NCBI RefSeq assembly: GCF_020991005.1
Contig: NZ_JAJLLW010000007.1
Span: 124,001 to 188,000 of the forward strand
Reading direction: 5' to 3'
Origin: Halomonas sp. CUBES01
GTDB lineage: Bacteria > Pseudomonadota > Gammaproteobacteria > Pseudomonadales > Halomonadaceae
Length of the DNA: 64,000 nucleotides
A model generated the notes under the pieces. The model had not been told where the DNA came from. It did not search any database and was given only the letters and a program-made list of their open reading frames with translations. Both the position numbers and the translations under genes were made by a program. This document shows positions 577 through 12,743 of this stretch, piece by piece (position 1 is the stretch's first letter; each line of letters begins with the position of its first letter).

Positions 577-691
577 TGTAACGCCATACGACGACAACGG
601 ACTTGGCTAACTGGCCCGCTAGCGGGTCACGGCGACATTCGTCCCGGTGATGGATTTTAGCCATCAGGCGCGCTACATTGGGTTAACTTAG
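577..691 (+). mobile_element. Probable oriIS-side end of the IS91-family element
   Basis: This is non-coding DNA directly after the transposase stop. It contains a perfect 12-base palindrome (CCCGCTAGCGGG, 615-626) and a second weak hairpin, as expected of the replication-origin end that follows the transposase in IS91 elements. The tetranucleotide GTTC at 692-695 is the known preferred target of IS91 itself, so the boundary is placed just before it. The exact end is inference. Confidence 0.45.
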
Positions 692-831
692 GTTCGGGGG
701 CACAGAAATAATGGCTAATCTCACCATTAGAGAGCATTACCACAGACATGCCTATGCACGGCTTGGTACCTCAGGCCGCATGCCAGTCAATACAATCCCC
801 TATTAAATAGCCGCCTGATGGACGCGCCTTA

Positions 832-890
832 GTCCAACAGGCATTTATCCGCCATGCTCCGCACGGCGAATAAATGCTTCACTGTTAGCA
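832..890 (+). other. attC-like integron recombination site A
   Basis: A 59-base site with the layout of an attC. It starts with GTCCAAC, an exact match to the inverse core consensus RYYYAAC, and ends with GTTAGCA, which keeps the essential GTT. Inside, AACAG (836-840) pairs with CTGTT (882-886). GCATTTATCCGCC (841-853) pairs with GGCGAATAAATGC (865-877) except for one internal mismatch. The loop has 11 bases, and four unpaired bases (878-881) lie on the right arm. The next gene starts 13 bases after the site, as in cassettes. Confidence 0.7.
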
Positions 891-902
891 GTAGGGAGTT
901 AA

Positions 903-1487
903 ATGGACGATTTCGAGATCACTTGGTATATGCAAGAGCTCTCAATGCACTCATTGGGTGTAGAGCACGAATTCATGAATATGCTTCAAGTCGCCTCGAA
1001 TCCCGAGACTAGGCAACAAAGATTAGTTTGGTTTCACCTAACCTCCTGCCTAGCGCATGCTGCGATGATGTCCAAATATTTGTCACCTGTCCGTCCTCAA
1101 GGTGTTTCACGTGAGAGAAAGCGAACGCTTCGGCGGTTTCTAGAGGTCGCTGACGATTCTGAAATTCTTTCCCGGGCAGCTCGCGATAACATCGAGCATT
1201 TTGACGAAAGGGTTGATAATTGGGTTGGCAAAGATTGCGGTGGAATTCTTGAAGTGGTTTTGCCAAACCGACGTGGATACGAATTTCTTGACGGTGACAA
1301 TAAACGTATAAAACGAGTGCTGCTCGGTGAAGAACTCATTTTTATCACAGAGAACCGGGATGGCAGTAAGCTGGAAATTCCACTTGAACCAGTCGTTGAG
1401 GAAGCAAAAAGGATTGGGTCACGAGCTGGAGACTGGATTCAGGATAATTCCCCCTACCATTTCATTTACCCAGGCCAGCAATGCTAA
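903..1487 (+). CDS. Cassette-borne HEPN-like protein, function unknown
   Basis: A 194-residue soluble protein with no family name I can give. Residues 94-99 read RDNIEH, an exact R-D-x3-H arrangement of the Rx4-6H catalytic motif of HEPN RNases, followed by FDERVDNW. The segment is predicted helical, and residues 40-60 form another helix. HEPN proteins act as toxins or phage-defence RNases, so this is a candidate RNA-cleaving effector by inference. The start is supported by GGGAG at 893-897. The gene is flanked by attC-like sites, and its TAA stop lies inside the second one, as typical for a one-gene cassette. No antitoxin partner is visible. Confidence 0.7.
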   Translation: MDDFEITWYMQELSMHSLGVEHEFMNMLQVASNPETRQQRLVWFHLTSCLAHAAMMSKYLSPVRPQGVSRERKRTLRRFLEVADDSEILSRAARDNIEHFDERVDNWVGKDCGGILEVVLPNRRGYEFLDGDNKRIKRVLLGEELIFITENRDGSKLEIPLEPVVEEAKRIGSRAGDWIQDNSPYHFIYPGQQC

Positions 1488-1569
1488 CAAGTCATTCCAG
1501 TTCGTTCCGGCCCTGACGGGCCTGCACCGGACGCCCTTGTCAGGGCGCCGCTGAATATTGGCGTTACAT
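1482..1569 (+). other. attC-like integron recombination site B
   Basis: An 88-base imperfect inverted repeat that begins over the preceding stop codon (CTAACAAG) and ends GGCGTTACAT, matching the TAACAA...GGCGTTA ends of chromosomal-integron attC sites. The central arm is strong: GCCCTGAC (1510-1517) pairs with GTCAGGGC (1539-1546). Further out, ATTCCAG (1494-1500) pairs with CTGAAT (1551-1556), leaving one bulged C. The outer AAC (1486-1488) and GTT (1563-1565) are complementary. An 8-base copy of its end, GTTACATC, recurs at 1621-1628. Confidence 0.8.
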
Positions 1570-1659
1570 CCAGATTCGAGACGCTTGGCAGAGGGCTTAT
1601 TGAGGGAAAGGAGTTACCCTGTTACATCTACTTTTTATGTCTACTTAATGGAGTGAAAA

Positions 1660-2223
1660 ATGACGGAACAAAAAGCAAAATTTCGCTATTCAGCACTTGA
1701 AGGCGTTATTGAACTAGAGGGTTCGGAAGAATTTATATCATCACACATGGAAACATTGACGGATTTGGTTCGCGTTGTTTCAAGGCATACTCCAATAGCG
1801 ACGAAAGCCGAAAAACAAACTACTCCCTCTTCAGGGAACGATGCCAGCGTTGATTCAAGTTCAACAGATGACGGCCCTTCATCAGATGGAATCGGTTCAC
1901 ACCCAAAAATTTATTCGCAAATTAATGAAAAACTTAAGATCATCAGCAAAGTTCCTGGGGCCAATAAAAGAGAAAAGTCTATCAATGCCGCTCTTCTTTA
2001 CTGTTATGGAGCAGAGTTGATGGGCGACGAGCAAGTTCCGTCATCTGAAATCAGGAACGTCTGCGAAGAACATGGTTTTTTGGACGGAACAAACTTCTCG
2101 AAAATATTCGACGACAATACAACCTTTCTCCTCGATGGGAAAAAGGGTGGCAATAAGCAAGTCAAGCTAACGTTCAATGGCAGAGAAAAAGCCCAAGCAC
2201 TGATAAAAGAGTTAGAGGCATGA
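1660..2223 (+). CDS. Cassette gene, first of a coupled pair; winged-helix protein
   Basis: A 187-residue unrecognised protein. Residues 1-45 look like a beta-hairpin (FRYSALEGVIELEG) plus an amphipathic helix. Residues 55-82 are a Ser/Asp/Gly-rich flexible linker. Residues 83-187 are mixed alpha/beta and end in a winged-helix-like arrangement (helix SSEIRNVCEEHG, recognition-like NFSKIFDD, then strands with KKGGNKQVKLT). The start follows GGAG at 1650-1653. The stop overlaps the next start (ATGA at 2220-2223), so the two proteins are probably made in a fixed ratio. DNA is AT-richer than the chromosomal genes further along. A nucleic-acid-binding sensor or antitoxin role is inference. Confidence 0.7.
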   Translation: MTEQKAKFRYSALEGVIELEGSEEFISSHMETLTDLVRVVSRHTPIATKAEKQTTPSSGNDASVDSSSTDDGPSSDGIGSHPKIYSQINEKLKIISKVPGANKREKSINAALLYCYGAELMGDEQVPSSEIRNVCEEHGFLDGTNFSKIFDDNTTFLLDGKKGGNKQVKLTFNGREKAQALIKELEA

Positions 2224-2957
2224 ATGCCAGAGATATCTTGGTTGGTCGTTATCCTGATGAACTAATTGACCTTTTGATTTCTTATTTCAAAGAAATCGAG
2301 AGAAGCTACCGCCTAGAGAGCTGGAAGCCGAGTGAGCTTGACTCAGGGCATTTCGTTGAAGTCGCACGCAGGATTATTGAGCATGAACTATTTGGCACCT
2401 ACACGCCGGTCAGCAAGTCTTTGGGGTCGTTTAATCCGTCTGTCTTAGGCAAGTATGAGTCATCATCAGGGGATGAATCGCTTCGCATAATAATGCCGAG
2501 AATCCTTTACTCAATGTATTGCGTGAGAAATAAGCGTGGTGTGGGGCATGTCGGAAGCATATCGCCTAATAAGATGGATGCTACGTTCATCCTTTCGTCC
2601 GCTAAATGGGTATTGGCAGAGTTTATAAGAATCGCCGGTCAAACCGTTCCTGAGGTGGCGCATTCGATCATAGATGATTTGACAGATAAGCATGTAGACC
2701 TTGTCTGGTCTGACGAGGAGACATTTATGATTCTTGACGCAAAAATGAAAGCGGCCGATAAGGTTTTGGTGGCACTTTATAAAGAAGACGATATTAATAT
2801 CGGACTACTGCAACAACGTATTCATTACAAGAACAAATCCGATTTCAAGAAGATAGTAAAAAAACTAGAGGCTTCCAAGTTTTTGCATTGGACTGAACAA
2901 GATAGCTGTAAACTTTCCCCCTTAGGTGTGCGAGAAGTAGAAGATCGGATAATGTAA
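2220..2957 (+). CDS. Cassette gene, second of a coupled pair; HEPN-like plus winged helix
   Basis: A 245-residue soluble protein. Residues 1-160 are largely helical and include R103-N-K-R-G-V-G-H110, an Rx6H motif of the HEPN type with the expected Asn after Arg, followed by the N-x-M-D-A and WVLAE stretches. I associate this pattern with a widespread but uncharacterised family. Residues 170-245 form a second domain that looks like a winged helix (DFKKIVKKLEASKFL, then KLSPLGVREVE). The start overlaps the preceding stop by 4 bases. A HEPN core joined to a DNA/RNA-binding tail beside a winged-helix partner resembles a toxin-antitoxin or abortive-infection design; this is inference from layout, not homology. 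Confidence 0.72.
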   Translation: MNARDILVGRYPDELIDLLISYFKEIERSYRLESWKPSELDSGHFVEVARRIIEHELFGTYTPVSKSLGSFNPSVLGKYESSSGDESLRIIMPRILYSMYCVRNKRGVGHVGSISPNKMDATFILSSAKWVLAEFIRIAGQTVPEVAHSIIDDLTDKHVDLVWSDEETFMILDAKMKAADKVLVALYKEDDINIGLLQQRIHYKNKSDFKKIVKKLEASKFLHWTEQDSCKLSPLGVREVEDRIM

Positions 2958-2969
2958 CCGGGCGTTAGA
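2953..2969 (+). other. Collapsed attC-like remnant C
   Basis: Right over the stop codon the sequence reads ATGTAACCGGGCGTTAG. The AAC (2956-2958) and GTT (2963-2965) cores and the GGGCGTTAG right end typical of attC sites are there, but only five bases separate them and the whole hairpin is missing. It looks like an attC from which the fold-back arm was deleted, fixing the coupled pair next to the following gene. Alternatively the match is chance; it is short. Confidence 0.45.
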
Positions 2970-2995
2970 ATTTCACAGACCATAGGGAGTTTCTG

Positions 2996-3874
2996 GTGAG
3001 AAGAGGAAGATACTATCTTGGCCGAGTAGTGAAAATAAATCTTGACCAAGAAAGCTTGATGGACGCTATTGCCAACGCTCCTATAGTATCTATCGGAAGG
3101 TTTGACTGGACGATAACGGATGTCGCCGACAATAGAAACGAAGAAACCCCTTATGTCTTTGGTAAGCTGTCTAAGTATGCAAAGGAAGGTCATGCTACGG
3201 TAATTGATGAAATCAGTCGCTCTCAGGTTGATGCAGATGTGCCAAACCTTCTTGAGGCCAGCTCTTCATTTATATATTTGCCGGAGTATTCAGGCGTTGC
3301 ATTCTTGCATGTGTGGAATGGTATTCAGGAAGACGTGTTTCCAAGAAGATTCAAATCCGTAATTGAGGCCGCCTTTGACGGTTTCTTTGTGGCTTGTGAT
3401 GTGGAGCCCGTATCAGATTATCGTGCATTCACTTCACGTCTAAAAAAGCTAAGCCATTTCACAGAGTTTTCGGCAACAGTACACCCCCCAAACCCTCTTT
3501 TCGGGAGGCTATGGGGCAGTCTCAACGACTACATTGAAAACAGAAACGCTTCCGAAGTAACAGTCAAAGAGCAGACTTCTAAGTTAAAAGGTTTGAAGTC
3601 TAGAATCATCGAGCTTATGGACCGAATAATGGGTTCTCCGGAGTACGAGCCAGATGAGCCGCCTGCAATTGGAGATGCGGCAATTTTGATGGCTGCTGAT
3701 GGCTATGGCAGGGGCAAAGTAGTTGGGATGGAAAATGGCGATGAAGTCGTGATTAAAACGAGTGATACGCAAAAGAGTTTTCTTCACGATAAAGAGCCAA
3801 TCCCCAAAGAGCTTGCGGTGAAAACAAAAATTCAGTTTGAAAAGATCTCCAAAGAGCGGAATATGAAGCACTGA
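2996..3874 (+). CDS. Cassette gene, soluble partner of a membrane protein; unknown
   Basis: A 292-residue protein starting with GTG, preceded by AGGGAG at 2984-2989 with good spacing. I do not recognise the family. The N-terminal 130 residues look beta-rich (RYYLGRVVKI, then SIGRFDWTITDV, FIYLPEYSGVAFLHVW). Residues 135-215 are helical and contain NPLFGRLWGSLNDYIENRNA. Residues 222-262 (AIGDAAILMAADGYGRGKVVGM) look like a small SH3/KOW-type barrel. No transmembrane segment is visible. The stop overlaps the next start by one base (TGATG), so it is coupled to the membrane gene. A soluble sensor or effector working with a membrane partner is the natural inference. Confidence 0.7.
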   Translation: MRRGRYYLGRVVKINLDQESLMDAIANAPIVSIGRFDWTITDVADNRNEETPYVFGKLSKYAKEGHATVIDEISRSQVDADVPNLLEASSSFIYLPEYSGVAFLHVWNGIQEDVFPRRFKSVIEAAFDGFFVACDVEPVSDYRAFTSRLKKLSHFTEFSATVHPPNPLFGRLWGSLNDYIENRNASEVTVKEQTSKLKGLKSRIIELMDRIMGSPEYEPDEPPAIGDAAILMAADGYGRGKVVGMENGDEVVIKTSDTQKSFLHDKEPIPKELAVKTKIQFEKISKERNMKH

Positions 3875-4365
3875 TGAAGATGCTTTATTTCTTAAGAGTG
3901 TTTTTCATCAGCTACGAGTTCGTATTCCTTGCTTTGTGTTTAGCTGTCTATATGCTCTCGCAAAAGCTTCTTTCAGCGAGCTTCCCGTTGTCATCGCTGA
4001 ATGAGGATGCCGTTAAGTGGGCAATGATTTATCCCGTTGGAATCGCAGGATGGACTTTGAAAGAGGGTGTGGGGGTTCTTTTTCCAGGCGAGAATAACGA
4101 GAAAGTTTTGCACGAATGGCCTGATTACTGGAAGCTTAGGATCCATTTTGATGTCGGCATAACCAACAGTATCTTGTTTACTATTCCGTGCTTTATTGTT
4201 TGGCTTCTGAGCGCGTTGAATACATTGGTTGGGGCTTGGGTTTTTGTCGGTTTCGCTGGAGCTTTGTCAATAAATGCTTTCAGTTTCTACACTGCAAAGA
4301 TTCATTTGAAAAGCGTCTTAATCCGGCTGGGTGATGCCAAGAATTCTAACAATCGCGTCAATTAG
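3874..4365 (+). CDS. Cassette gene, four-helix membrane protein; unknown
   Basis: A 163-residue protein with four hydrophobic segments (about residues 5-28, 45-65, 97-117 and 119-140), so an inner-membrane protein with both ends on the same side. No catalytic motif is visible; a polar loop of about 30 residues (EGVGVLFPGENNEK onward) lies between helices 2 and 3. It starts one base before the end of the upstream gene. Its last codons and TAG stop lie inside the following attC-like stem, so gene and recombination site have been selected together. A membrane-disrupting or signalling effector is inference; small multi-helix proteins play that role in several anti-phage pairs. Confidence 0.72.
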   Translation: MKMLYFLRVFFISYEFVFLALCLAVYMLSQKLLSASFPLSSLNEDAVKWAMIYPVGIAGWTLKEGVGVLFPGENNEKVLHEWPDYWKLRIHFDVGITNSILFTIPCFIVWLLSALNTLVGAWVFVGFAGALSINAFSFYTAKIHLKSVLIRLGDAKNSNNRVN

Positions 4366-4404
4366 GACGCTCGCAAGCTCGCGCCTATTACGCGGGCGTG
4401 GAGG
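4344..4404 (+). other. attC-like integron recombination site D, right core damaged
   Basis: The best-folded site of the array. A 14-bp stem pairs 4354-4370 with 4381-4394: CGCGT, AAT, AGG and CGC blocks on the left, interrupted by single unpaired bases C4359, T4363 and A4367, against an unbroken right arm. The loop is TCGCAAGCTC. Single-base bulges confined to one arm are the hallmark by which integrases choose the attC strand. The left core is TTCTAAC. The right end reads GGGCGTGGAGG where GGGCGTT is expected, and IS1182-like DNA begins there, so the site is probably disabled. Confidence 0.8.
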
Positions 4405-4660
4405 CTGTAGAAAAAAACCGCTGATCCCTAATTTTTGGTAGGATCGAGGAAACAGATGAGGAGTGGTCAGCATGCCGCGCTTCAAGGCTTATAACTACGA
4501 TCAGAACGCCATTGCGGTGATCAACTACCAAGATTAGCTCCACCCAGGCACCTTTGAAAACTCTGTACATTACCTGGTTGAGTACATCTCGCCCCGTCAG
4601 TTCTTCATCCCAAGCACTGCAACTGTGCGACAGTTCTGCTGGCCTATGATGCAGTCATTC
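4405..4660 (+). pseudogene. IS1182-type transposase, 5' remnant
   Basis: From 4472 the frame reads MPRFKAYNYDQN, then INYQD, a TAG stop at 4535-4537, and in the same frame LHPGTFENSVHYLVE. This matches the N-terminus of IS1182-family DDE transposases (RFKxYNYDQ, LxPGTFExxLHYLVE). A frameshift follows: another frame gives VLLAYDAVI, close to the family's AYDPAxLLK. Nothing later survives. The upstream stretch from about 4403 (GGCTGTAGAAAAAAACC) may be the element's leader or end. The rest of 4366-4697 holds no gene. Confidence 0.7.
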
Positions 4661-4697
4661 TATAAATTCAGTTTATTCAAGGCGATCCACCGATATT

Positions 4698-5654
4698 ATG
4701 ACCAGAAAAACACTAGGCTTGAAAACAAAAAGGCAAGTAGATGCCATGCCCGCCGACGAAGTTGAAGATCAATTCCCTAATGATCCCGAAAAACGTTTTT
4801 TAAATGGCGTCGCTATTCATCCTTCTCCGCGCATCTATTTAGAGCCTGGCTCTCAGCAGCTTACTGTGCGAGCGATGGATTTGATTACGCCCATTGGGAT
4901 GGGGCAACGAGGGTTGATTGTTGCGCCGCCAGGCTCTGGCAAGACGACGATGTTAAAACATATCTGTCAGGCCGTGGCCGAGGCCCATCCTGACATAAAG
5001 CTGTATGCCTTGCTGATTGATGAGCGCCCGGAAGAAGTGACCGATTTTAAGCGCAGTGTGACGGCAGAGGTACATGCCTCGTCGTCAGACGAAACCTACA
5101 CACACCATGTGCGTATGGCCGATAAGCTTCTTGAGTCGGCGCGTAAACAGGCAGGCGAGGGGCATGATGTAATGATTGTGATCGATTCGCTTACCAGACT
5201 CTCGCGGGTTCATAATGCCGAGCAGCGGGGCAATGGTCGCACCATGTCGGGTGGGCTGGATTCCCGCGCAATGGAAATACCGCGAAAACTGTTTGGCGCT
5301 GCGAGAAAGATCGAAAACGGTGGATCGCTCACCATTCTGGCCACCGTGCTGGTGGATACGGGAAGCCGTATGGATCAGGTGATTTTCGAGGAGTTCAAGG
5401 GCACGGGTAATATGGAGCTCGTGTTATCCCGCGACGTGGCCAATCAACGGCTCTTTCCGGCGATCGATATTGCCAAAAGCAGTACCCGTCGAGAAGAGCT
5501 TTTGATTGATGAAAGAGATATTGAAAAGGTAAGGGCATTGCGTAGAGCATTGACAACGCTTAAGCCAGTAGAAGGCGCGCAGAAGTTACTTGCTTTATTG
5601 GAGAAGTATCCCACTAATGCCGAGCTTTTGGATGCGTTTTTGCCCGCCTCCTGA
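4698..5654 (+). CDS. Short Rho-type transcription termination ATPase lacking the RNA-binding domain
   Basis: 318 residues against about 419 for standard Rho. The C-terminal ATPase/translocase core is complete: P-loop APPGSGKTT near residues 76-84, catalytic Glu in LIDERPEEVTDF, Walker B VMIVIDSLTRL, a Q-loop region ending MSGGLDSRA (Arg where E. coli has the Q-loop Lys), FKGTGNMEL and the arginine-finger stretch RLFPAIDI. The N-terminal helix bundle and cold-shock OB fold that bind rut RNA are absent. The ATG at 4698 has no good ribosome site; M16 (4743) is an alternative start. It stands alone, within 40 bases of the IS remnant, so it may be a truncated second copy or a dedicated short paralogue. 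Confidence 0.85.
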   Translation: MTRKTLGLKTKRQVDAMPADEVEDQFPNDPEKRFLNGVAIHPSPRIYLEPGSQQLTVRAMDLITPIGMGQRGLIVAPPGSGKTTMLKHICQAVAEAHPDIKLYALLIDERPEEVTDFKRSVTAEVHASSSDETYTHHVRMADKLLESARKQAGEGHDVMIVIDSLTRLSRVHNAEQRGNGRTMSGGLDSRAMEIPRKLFGAARKIENGGSLTILATVLVDTGSRMDQVIFEEFKGTGNMELVLSRDVANQRLFPAIDIAKSSTRREELLIDERDIEKVRALRRALTTLKPVEGAQKLLALLEKYPTNAELLDAFLPAS

Positions 5655-5669
5655 AATGTCAATAATAAT

Positions 5670-5704
5670 CAAGCCCACCTTTTTTTAGAGGCGGGCTTGT
5701 TTGT
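5670..5704. terminator. Bidirectional intrinsic terminator between rho-like and helicase genes
   Basis: CAAGCCCACCT (5670-5680) and AGGCGGGCTTG (5689-5699) form an 11-bp stem with one mismatch around a T-rich loop. It sits between the convergent rho-like gene (ends 5654) and helicase gene (ends 5723). The T-rich loop and flanking A/T runs suit termination in both directions. Confidence 0.7.
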
Positions 5705-9844: not shown

Positions 9845-10804
9845 TTGCAAAAAAGAACAGTCAAAAAGAGCAGGCAGCCCTCAATCTCTACACAGAAGAC
9901 ACGCAGTTACCTGGCGTGGAATGACTTTGAGGTTATTCTTGCCATCTCGACTGAAGGCTCTCTTTCTGGGGCCTCGCGAGCGCTGGGTGTCAGTCATGCA
10001 ACTGTTTTCCGGCGGCTGGGTGAAGTTGAGCAGCGTCTAGGCGTTACTCTCTTTGAGAGGAGCCGTACCGGTTATCGGCCTACGCTGGCAGGGGAAGAAC
10101 TTGCCGATACGGCTAGGGTCATGGATGAAGCAGCCCTGGCGGCGGAGCGTAAAGTCGCTGGTCGTGACCTGGAGCCCAGTGGTGAAATCTATACCACCAC
10201 AACGGACTCCTTACTGATGGGGTTGTTGGCACCTTTATTTACGCAATTCCGTTATAAATATCCAGCCATCGTGCTGGACGTTGCTATCTCTAATCAGTTG
10301 TTCAACCTGACTCGCCGGGAAGCGGACGTAGCTATTCGTCCCTCCAATCTTCCGCCTGAGAACTTGATTGGTCGACGGCTGACCACGATTGGCCAGGCTG
10401 TCTACGGGCATCGCAGCCTCGGCTTAACCCCAGGGGCCTCCATTGAGACCCTTGCGAACCAACCTTGGATTGGTGCAGGGCCACGATTGCAGGATTCAGC
10501 TCTAGACCAGTGGATGGACAAAAATGAGCTGAAGGCGGCCTGTGTCTACCGTGTGGATACCTTGGTCAGCATACTCAGCGCGATACATGCGCGAATGGGG
10601 CTCGCCGTCCTGCCGTGCTATTTGGCGGATGAAGATCCGGATATTATTCAGCTAAGCGACCCTATTCCCGAACTGGAATACGGGCTGTGGTTTCTTATGC
10701 ACCCAGACTTGAGAGGCGTTGTTAAAATTCACGCTTTGAAGGACTTTTTGACCGAGGCTATCCAGGCACAGAAGCAGCGCCTAGCTGGGCCTCTATTGAG
10801 TTAA
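9845..10804 (+). CDS. LysR-family transcriptional regulator
   Basis: 319 residues. The N-terminal winged helix is clear (FEVILAISTEGSLSGASRAL, then SHATVFRRLGEVEQRLGVTLF), followed by a linker helix and a periplasmic-binding-type effector domain to residue 310. TGA at 9833 closes the frame upstream, so the start must be TTG at 9845 or a non-standard codon near the tryptophan at residue 25; no good ribosome site is visible. It resembles the subgroup in which the first residues before the HTH are extended and basic. Target unknown; the divergent small gene and the HIT gene downstream are candidates. Confidence 0.88.
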   Translation: MQKRTVKKSRQPSISTQKTRSYLAWNDFEVILAISTEGSLSGASRALGVSHATVFRRLGEVEQRLGVTLFERSRTGYRPTLAGEELADTARVMDEAALAAERKVAGRDLEPSGEIYTTTTDSLLMGLLAPLFTQFRYKYPAIVLDVAISNQLFNLTRREADVAIRPSNLPPENLIGRRLTTIGQAVYGHRSLGLTPGASIETLANQPWIGAGPRLQDSALDQWMDKNELKAACVYRVDTLVSILSAIHARMGLAVLPCYLADEDPDIIQLSDPIPELEYGLWFLMHPDLRGVVKIHALKDFLTEAIQAQKQRLAGPLLS

Positions 10805-11320: not shown

Positions 11321-11442
11321 CTGTGTCTGGCCTAGTGACACCTGTATATAGCGCCTTGTGCTAGTGAGAAGACGCTTGCTAACAAAGCGAGCGTGGGCTG
11401 CTGGCGTCATGCAAAACTCTACCAGTGCGGGGTATCGCGACC

Positions 11443-12321
11443 ATGTTTGACGATTTTGAGAAGCGCCGTATCCAAACCGGAGACGCCGAGATATTCGTAT
11501 GCCTCGGCGGGTCTGGTCCGCCGCTTTTGCTGTTGCACGGTTACCCTCAAAATCACGTGATGTGGCATGCGGTGGCAACGCAGCTACGCCACCATTTTAC
11601 GCTCGTGATACCCGACCTGCGGGGTTACGGTGAGAGCAAGGGGCCGGAACCCGATCCAGAGCACCACGGGTATTCCAAGCGCGCCATGGCCCAGGACATG
11701 GTGGAGGTCATGTCGGCGCTTGGGTATGAGCAATTTCTGCTCGCGGGCCATGATCGCGGCGCACGCGTGGGCTACCGGCTCGTGCTTGATCATCCCGAGC
11801 GGGTCTTGCGGCTTGCCGCACTCGATATTGTCCCGACCCTTGAGGTGTGGGAACGGATGAATAAAGATGTCGCCATGAGAACCTACCACTGGCCCTTTCT
11901 TGCCCAGCCGGCTCCCTTGCCCGAGCGGTTGATCGGCCACGATCCCGAGTTTTATTTGCGTCACCTACTGGCGCAGTGGGCAGGCCGACTGGAAGCTATC
12001 ACTGCTCCCGCGTTGGCCGAGTATATCCACCACTTCAATAAGCCATCCGTCATTGAGGCAACGTGCGAAGACTATCGCGCGGGGGCCACGGTTGACCTGG
12101 AACATGACCGGGCGGATCGCGATGCCGGTCGCCGGATTCAATGCCCTATGATGGTTGTCTGGGGCAGGGGGTTCCTCGCCGGGCAAGCTGAATCGCCGCT
12201 TAGCGTCTGGCGTGATTGGGCTGATGATGTACGCGAGGTCGCTCTAGACTGCGGGCATTTCGTGGCCGAAGAAGAACCGGATGCATGCGCCGTCGCTCTT
12301 CACAATTTTTTTGGTGAATAG
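11443..12321 (+). CDS. Alpha/beta hydrolase, fluoroacetate-dehalogenase-like
   Basis: 292 residues from ATG 11443; a GTG six codons earlier is possible. Family motifs are in place: oxyanion region LLLLHGYPQNHVMWH, DLRGYGES, nucleophile elbow GHDRGARVGYR (Asp nucleophile, then Arg), DYRAGATVD, acid region VVWG and the catalytic His in CGHFVAEE. An Asp nucleophile with the RG dyad and HGYPQ are typical of the fluoroacetate dehalogenase/epoxide hydrolase branch. The natural substrate cannot be told; many such genes are annotated this way without tested dehalogenase activity. Confidence 0.88.
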   Translation: MFDDFEKRRIQTGDAEIFVCLGGSGPPLLLLHGYPQNHVMWHAVATQLRHHFTLVIPDLRGYGESKGPEPDPEHHGYSKRAMAQDMVEVMSALGYEQFLLAGHDRGARVGYRLVLDHPERVLRLAALDIVPTLEVWERMNKDVAMRTYHWPFLAQPAPLPERLIGHDPEFYLRHLLAQWAGRLEAITAPALAEYIHHFNKPSVIEATCEDYRAGATVDLEHDRADRDAGRRIQCPMMVVWGRGFLAGQAESPLSVWRDWADDVREVALDCGHFVAEEEPDACAVALHNFFGE

Positions 12322-12359
12322 GCGGATCTGAATTCAATCCTTTAAGTTTAGCGCTACTT

Positions 12360-12437
12360 AAATTTCATCGTTCCAGGCTTGCTCGACAGAGTTTTCATGC
12401 CAATCGTTCAGATGCATCGTGGACTCGCGAGCCTGAG
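12360..12437 (-). pseudogene. Addiction-module antitoxin fragment
   Basis: Read on the minus strand this gives RESTMHLNDWHENSVEQAWNDEI, which aligns with RELIMSLDGPRDDSVEQAWNDEI of the intact antitoxin at 8646-8882. Nothing of the rest of the gene or of a toxin remains. Its nearest intact relative is 3.6 kb upstream on the same strand, so this is duplicated and decayed DNA. Confidence 0.75.
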
Positions 12438-12450
12438 CCACCGGGTTATT

Positions 12451-12479
12451 TTGACGCTATGACGCTGTGACGTCATAAT
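12451..12479 (+). promoter_or_regulatory. Promoter with overlapping palindromic operator of the RHH/RelE pair
   Basis: -35 TTGACG (12451-12456) and -10 CATAAT (12474-12479) are 17 bases apart. The perfect palindrome TGACGTCA (12468-12475) and two further TGACG/GACG half-sites overlap the spacer and -10, the normal place for autorepression by a ribbon-helix-helix antitoxin. Confidence 0.7.
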
Positions 12480-12509
12480 GTCAAGACGTTACCTCGTTCG
12501 GAGATTGCC

Positions 12510-12743
12510 ATGAGCGATACATCTAAGCGTTCTACGATTTATTTTGATCCGCAGTTACATGCTGCGCTGCGCCTGAAGGCCGCGCATACGCATCGTTCAC
12601 TGTCGGATATCGTCAACGATGCTGTTCGTGCGGCATTGGCTGAGGATCAGGAAGATTTGGCGGCATTTGAGGAACGAGTTTCCGAGCCCACCATGAGCTA
12701 TGAAGCCTTGCTGGACGATTTGAAGGCTCATGGCAAGTTATAA
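12510..12743 (+). CDS. Ribbon-helix-helix antitoxin
   Basis: 77 residues. The first 45 form a ribbon-helix-helix DNA-binding domain (STIYFDPQLHAALRLKAA, then RSLSDIVNDAVRAALAED). The acidic C-terminal tail (FEERVSEPTMSYEALLDDLKAHGKL) is the toxin-neutralising segment in this type. It overlaps the toxin start by 14 bases. The palindromic promoter upstream suggests autoregulation. Confidence 0.88.
   Translation: MSDTSKRSTIYFDPQLHAALRLKAAHTHRSLSDIVNDAVRAALAEDQEDLAAFEERVSEPTMSYEALLDDLKAHGKL

Follow-up and report, generated by a model that had tools for sequence, protein, structure and literature searches.

Arrays of integron gene cassettes that lack an integrase are usually taken as decaying leftovers, and the question raised by the locus described here is whether one such array, in Halomonas sp. 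CUBES01, is a leftover of this kind or belongs to a site into which cassettes are still brought from elsewhere. The DNA analysed, hereafter the window, is a stretch of 64,000 nucleotides corresponding to C28:124001-188000 in an assembly of 3.6 Mb and 30 contigs, and all features described in it lie on its forward strand. From left to right, the locus is composed of (i) an attI-like site, (ii) a unit encoding a tyrosine recombinase (TyrRec) and a Y2 (IS91-type) transposase, referred to below as unit c0, (iii) three cassettes in one orientation, (iv) a relic of an IS1182-type insertion sequence (IS) lying in the R' box of the last attC site, and (v) a rho-like gene. The names ytoQ and rho for the flanking genes, as well as the family name IS1182 for the right-edge element, are those we take to apply. 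In our reading, considered probable though by no means assured, the array consists of the cassettes of a chromosomal platform possessing an attI but no intI, located between a ytoQ-like and the rho-like gene and loaded in trans, the second and third cassettes being two-protein systems.

The two boxes of an attC site are called R'' and R'. A fold scan found the first of three sites proposed by an earlier, sequence-only reading of the window (832-890) but missed the second and third, and a covariance model was therefore trained on 37 attC sites from 12 other genomes of the family, drawn from 13 stretches that each begin at a match to an integron integrase; these sites were hand-picked from fold-scan lists, and neither the window nor its own genome contributed any. 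Thirteen pairs of the model covary (score 0.386; 0.161 after shuffling and no more than 0.158 on sliding). As a positive control, it recovered five sites in the integron that the same genome carries on contig C14 (L012 7863-15345), i.e., a broken intI heading a second array whose genes include TIR and type IIG ones; it missed one site seen by eye in that integron (L012 about 10671-10770) and another 3' of a P4/P5-type gene pair in genome G263 (L019 about 2851-2925). Applied to the whole 64-kb window, on both strands and with filters off, the model placed 4344-4404 first of ten (20.8 bits, E 0.022) and 1482-1569 second (14.6 bits, E 0.49), with limits identical to the ends read by eye from the letters. 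Recurrence in relatives independently supports both sites: relatives of 1482-1569 occur in at least 7 of the 60 other genomes of the genus and in the C14 integron (81%), while 4344-4399 recurs in G741 (96%), in G612 (89%), and in eight Photobacterium, Alteromonas, and Vibrio records. The plasmids gave no match for 1480-1572 nor for 700-902, and Rfam at gathering threshold gave none in the window. The covariance search, which the sequence-only reading had proposed as its own check and which was run here with our own model, thus upheld two of the three attC-like sites as the best-ranked matches of the window and scored the third low: with 2.3 bits only, 832-890 is rejected as a canonical attC, although it has the lowest folding energy per base among the 26 fold-scan candidates of the window. 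It corresponds to the end hairpin of unit c0 (832-884), followed by GTT where the next cassette begins.

The limits of the cassettes were defined by closure, i.e., complementarity between the R' box at the 5' end of a cassette and the R'' box of its own attC. As a control in relatives, 20 out of 25 consecutive site pairs close at 7/7, against 4.9% of 862 non-consecutive ones. In the window, all three cassettes close at 7/7, namely GTTAGCA (884-890) with TGCTAAC (1482-1488), GTTACAT (1563-1569) with the R'' box ATGTAAC (2952-2958), and GTTAGAA (2964-2970) with TTCTAAC (4344-4350). The last two closures share a collapsed attC (2952-2970), in which R'' ATGTAAC and R' GTTAGAA are separated by CGGGC; since each half closes its own cassette at 7/7, this site is where cassette 2 truly ends and cassette 3 starts, and consequently these two cassettes hold two genes each. 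Cassette 1 (885-1563) comprises the open reading frame (ORF) P1 (903-1487, 194 amino acids) and its attC (1482-1569). Cassette 2 (1564-2964) contains the overlapping genes P2 (1660-2223, 187 amino acids) and P3 (2220-2957, 245 amino acids), its attC stem being lost. Cassette 3 (2965-4398) contains the overlapping genes P4 (2996-3874, 292 amino acids) and P5 (3874-4365, 163 amino acids), the latter a probable membrane protein with two strongly hydrophobic stretches, and ends with the attC at 4344-4404. Regarding the structured 3' attC of an integron cassette, it is present in cassettes 1 and 3, and cassette 2 has the collapsed site only. With model ranks 1 and 2 and three of three closures, the array claimed from the letters is real, as are its five genes in one orientation, the collapsed site suspected at 2953-2969 and the two cassettes with two overlapping genes each.

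From gene pairing, motif, and company, P2+P3 and P4+P5 are plausibly defence or toxin-antitoxin modules. None of the five proteins has a Pfam or NCBIfam match at E 0.1. Relatives of P3 were found in 2 of 368 other genomes of the class, in one of 218 further genomes from a sample of the phylum, in one contig of the genome_contigs set and in one viral contig; L024 was rejected as a chance match in a long unrelated ORF. In all five, P3 is directly preceded by an overlapping ORF of 150-202 amino acids (longest reading of each ORF), and the alignment of these partners with P2 gives 28-36% identity for three of them and 17-18% for two; in G160, an attC of 38.7 bits lies 3' of the pair. HEPN proteins are defined by an Rx4-6H motif. 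In the alignment of the six P3 proteins, R106, G107, and H110 are invariant and R103 is present in five, which corresponds to an Rx6H motif (RNKRGVGH in the window), and the AlphaFold model of P3 is helical and mostly confident over residues 1-155 but poor beyond 157, the C-terminal part being perhaps, with low confidence, winged-helix-like. P3 resembles HEPN toxins and Abi proteins by its Rx6H at the same place in five out of six and its helical N-terminal domain, but differs from them by the lack of a Pfam match, an extra C-terminal part and an upstream partner in six out of six. P1 carries RDNIEHFDER, where RDNIEH fits an Rx4H HEPN-type motif that is partly present in a protein of a Rhodococcus plasmid (identity in 30 of 83 columns), and P1 is perhaps another HEPN-type protein. 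As for P4, one relative was found among the 368 other class genomes (G263, 55%), overlapped by a relative of P5 (31%), and none among the 218 others of the phylum sample; a 24% relative is encoded beside dndD in a Picosynechococcus plasmid, where the membrane-like neighbour does not align, and the structure model of P4 has a predicted local distance difference test (pLDDT) value of 34. The plasmids contained no relative of the window P3 and one weak archaeal match to a relative's P3, and the viral contigs nothing with P3 alone, P4 alone or the P4 alignment. In G234 (L015 332-1469), two or three short ORFs instead of one precede the P3 relative. The P2+P3 pair of the viral-collection contig (L023 4433-5741) is perhaps prophage cargo, and lies beside genes that we presume to be UmuC-like and S24-like.

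Partners acting jointly would explain why the two genes of cassettes 2 and 3 are kept together. In P2+P3, the most likely composition would be a HEPN effector that targets RNA and a partner acting as sensor or inhibitor; in P4+P5, a sensor in the cytosol and an effector in the membrane. Both pairs would serve in phage protection or act as toxin and antitoxin. That these cassettes are toxin-antitoxin pairs stabilising the array only, with no role in phage defence, is possible but on the doubtful side: the C14 array has a two-gene pair that looks like Phd/RelE, and toxin-antitoxin systems are reported to be abundant in halophile integrons (PMC7923331), but the P2+P3 pair in the viral-collection contig and the P4 relative beside dndD are also compatible with defence. 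A further point for defence is the company kept in integron arrays of the genus, which hold TIR and type IIG genes in the C14 integron, and GajA and GajB together with an AbiGi-like gene in G741. In the latter, at the same locus as the window array (L084 9128-12476), GajA (3.6e-245) and GajB (3.6e-201) lie between two attCs and are followed by the AbiGi-like gene (2.9e-11). What the window cassettes have in common with Gabija, itself a two-gene defence system, is a pair of genes enclosed by attCs at this locus; the difference is that the window proteins have no PADLOC match to GajA and GajB. Phage defence in integron cassettes was reportedly described in 2025.

The array locus has no integron integrase, including in the 12 kb upstream of the window covered by L011, and the whole genome has only one, split into two frames on C14; the array is thus integrase-less, as the sequence-only reading had it from the window. 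That reading was incomplete, however, in that an attI-like site heads the array outside the window, about 1.5 kb upstream of it (C28:122403-122465), sharing 50 of its 63 bases with the attI that accompanies a true intI, while the next best of 83,937 places reaches 32. With at least two attCs and no intI nearby, the array is by definition a cluster of attC sites lacking integron integrases (CALIN); compared with a complete integron, the attI is present (50/63) and the intI beside it absent, the only recombinase there being the TyrRec of c0. Within the family, an integron integrase at 1e-60 occurs in 38 of 151 genomes (own included) and 12 of 24 genera.

The same platform was found in eight relatives of the genus, whose rho-like loci (L084-L091) were picked by hand from the matches of a DNA search. 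A ytoQ-like and a rho-like gene (the latter at 4698-5654 in the window) flank the locus in 8/8, and no IntI, TyrRec or Y2 match occurs between them in any of the eight. An attI-like site (43-54 of 63) lies between the flanking genes in seven, and attCs are found by the model in seven. Yet their cargo differs from that of the window: 903-4340 has no blastn match in any of the eight loci, i.e., there is no common cassette gene, and when 580-5700 was compared with 61 genus genomes, none of the matches listed outside the own genome covers the cassette genes. Among L084-L098, an intI fragment occurs only in L092, at another place in G661. Ordinary decay, in which an own intI was once present and lost and the arrays are shrinking remnants differing by loss only, is accordingly unlikely, though not negligible: the other integron of the genome has a broken intI, and in the array itself the stem of one attC has been deleted and another attC, the last, is interrupted, but none of the eight relatives has an intI between the flanks while seven keep an attI-like site, none shares a cassette gene with the window, and L092 holds the only intI fragment of the 15 loci. 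If the platform is loaded in trans, an IntI from another locus, i.e., from the intI-bearing integrons of these genomes, would insert and remove the cassettes; G645, one of the eight, has an intact IntI elsewhere in its genome. In the window strain, the array would now be frozen because the intI on C14 is frame-broken.

Several points weigh against loading in trans and against two-protein defence systems. The eight loci were selected by hand; L089 has no recognisable attI-like site, the model recognises no attC in L090 and two weak ones in L087 (E 0.12 and 0.18), and the E-values of the two window sites are weak as well. G365 and G661 have the platform and no IntI match at 1e-60, and G741, G751, G753, G750, and G732 are absent from the IntI match list, possibly unsampled. 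Each lineage could also have lost its own intI. Among the proteins, the best PADLOC match is that of P3 at 0.011, the other four having none at E 0.1, and none is convincing; the motif loop of P3 (107-114) has a pLDDT under 50, so that the HEPN assignment stands on a motif and a partial model, and the matches of the P3 fold searches are not significant.

The array resembles known CALINs by two recognisable attCs, a single cassette orientation and no intI nearby, and differs from them by the attI-like site at its head and by a platform that relatives retain at a single chromosomal position. Outside class 1, attI is not detected by IntegronFinder 2.0, and such attI-like sites would therefore go unseen. 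The CALIN of Halorhodospira halochloris (PMC7923331) has one cassette with six ORFs and ISHahl1 directly after the last attC; it is likewise integrase-less, with a multi-ORF cassette and an IS after the last attC, but this IS belongs to IS200/IS605, whereas the window carries an IS1182-type element placed within the R' box. With these six ORFs and GajA+GajB in G741, multi-gene cassettes exist, and two-gene cassettes are less unusual than the sequence-only reading had held. If loading in trans is true, i.e., an attI without intI kept at one place across species with different cassettes, some CALINs would be working, trans-loaded platforms, and the array would offer two compact, unstudied gene pairs as candidates for anti-phage activity.

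At the head of the array, unit c0 begins with GTTGAAC directly after the attI-like site and spans L011 10463 to window 884. It consists of an intact 288-amino-acid tyrosine recombinase ORF (L011 10560-11426; Phage_integrase, 2.7e-38) overlapping an intact 385-amino-acid Y2 transposase ORF (11419-12576), the 3' part of which lies in the window at 1-576 (Pfam Y2_Tnp, 8.6e-35; NCBIfam IS91 transposase). Of the IS91 and IS1182 debris said to flank the array, only the IS1182-type relic is therefore debris, the IS91-type part being two intact ORFs. The recombinase is 34% identical to IntI, with gaps at the IntI extra stretch and TIGR02249 positions 179-236 unmatched, and is rejected as an integron integrase for want of this IntI-specific stretch. 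The end of the unit (window 580-887) recurs in seven further copies from five genomes, whose homology ends at 887-888, just past GTTA (ATTA in L164), the sequence then differing, and attCs lie 3' of five of the seven; the plasmids had no match for 580-890. The whole unit is present in four copies, with recombinases 97-99% and transposases 92-94% identical; the other three have fragments (L163 and L165) or neither gene recognisable (L164), which means that the end piece is separable from the unit. For these four whole units, the best attI place of the left-hand locus is exactly at the unit start, with 50, 36, 35, and 34 of 63 bases, of which only 50 is clearly above the background (30-34), and in G737 an intact IntI stands beside the attI place at the unit start. 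As the unit closes at 6/7 in the own genome and at 6, 6, 6, and 5 of 7 in the four other whole copies, it may either move as a cassette or transpose into attI. In the own genome and in four further ones (L159-L162, L166-L169), the unit, with its near-perfect end hairpin, occupies the first cassette position, either at attI or adjacent to it. That this IS91-type unit brought the array by one-ended rolling-circle transposition carrying its neighbour is very improbable and largely refuted, for although it is intact and directly at the array head, both its ends coincide with integron crossover points and L084-L091 show the same ytoQ, attI-like, array, and rho arrangement without TyrRec or Y2.

At the right edge, the R' box of the last attC is interrupted by the 5' relic of the IS1182-type element (4401-4661), and the same relic stands before rho in relatives. 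An intact copy (L142) encodes a DDE transposase (DDE_Tnp_1_6 and DUF772), the window holding the 5' relic only. In relatives, the usual reading of the last attC before rho is GCGTT, after which the IS starts with GAGGCTGTAGAAAA or a near variant; the window junction has GTG where relatives read GTT, and L088 and L090 have no GCGTT-IS junction. In 40 further copies of the IS, picked by hand, the left end follows C/G-GTT in 38 (exceptions, L113 and L137), and 30 have beside them an attC that the model finds at E 1 and whose coordinates place its end at the junction, the other ten having none at E 1. Twenty of these were fetched longer (L139-L158); a right end was found in 12, followed by GTTR in 12 out of 12, and eight have no visible right end. 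Without selection, all 66 exact IS ends in the 61 genomes were considered: GTT stands next to 28 and AAC, which is the right end read in reverse, next to 32, i.e., 60/66 vs. about 2/66 by chance, with neither in six. The element hence lies within the R' box, bordered by GTT at either end, and its target appears to be the attC R' box, i.e., an integron crossover box, as judged from these flanks. The full element had no match among the plasmids, and a literature search found no report of IS1182 in attC. attC sites are also targeted at one of their ends by IS1111-attC elements, as described by Tetu and Holmes (2008) and by Post and Hall (2009), both cited in PMC11187229. The element of the window shares with them an IS aimed at one end of attC sites and copies at a fixed attC position, and differs by its DDE_Tnp_1_6/DUF772 transposase, its matching inverted ends and GTT on both sides.

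Taken together with the platform loaded in trans, a broader reading falls somewhat short of an even chance: the genus would keep a second platform with attI and without intI, served in trans and storing two-gene defence modules, with the IS1182-type element specialised in attC R' boxes and the TyrRec/HUH unit in attI; each of the two kinds of integron site would then have its own mobile parasite, the two being unrelated. The array was also said to be AT-richer than its surroundings, in agreement with a G+C content of 42-47% from about 1,000 to 4,500 vs. 46-57% between 5 and 11 kb.

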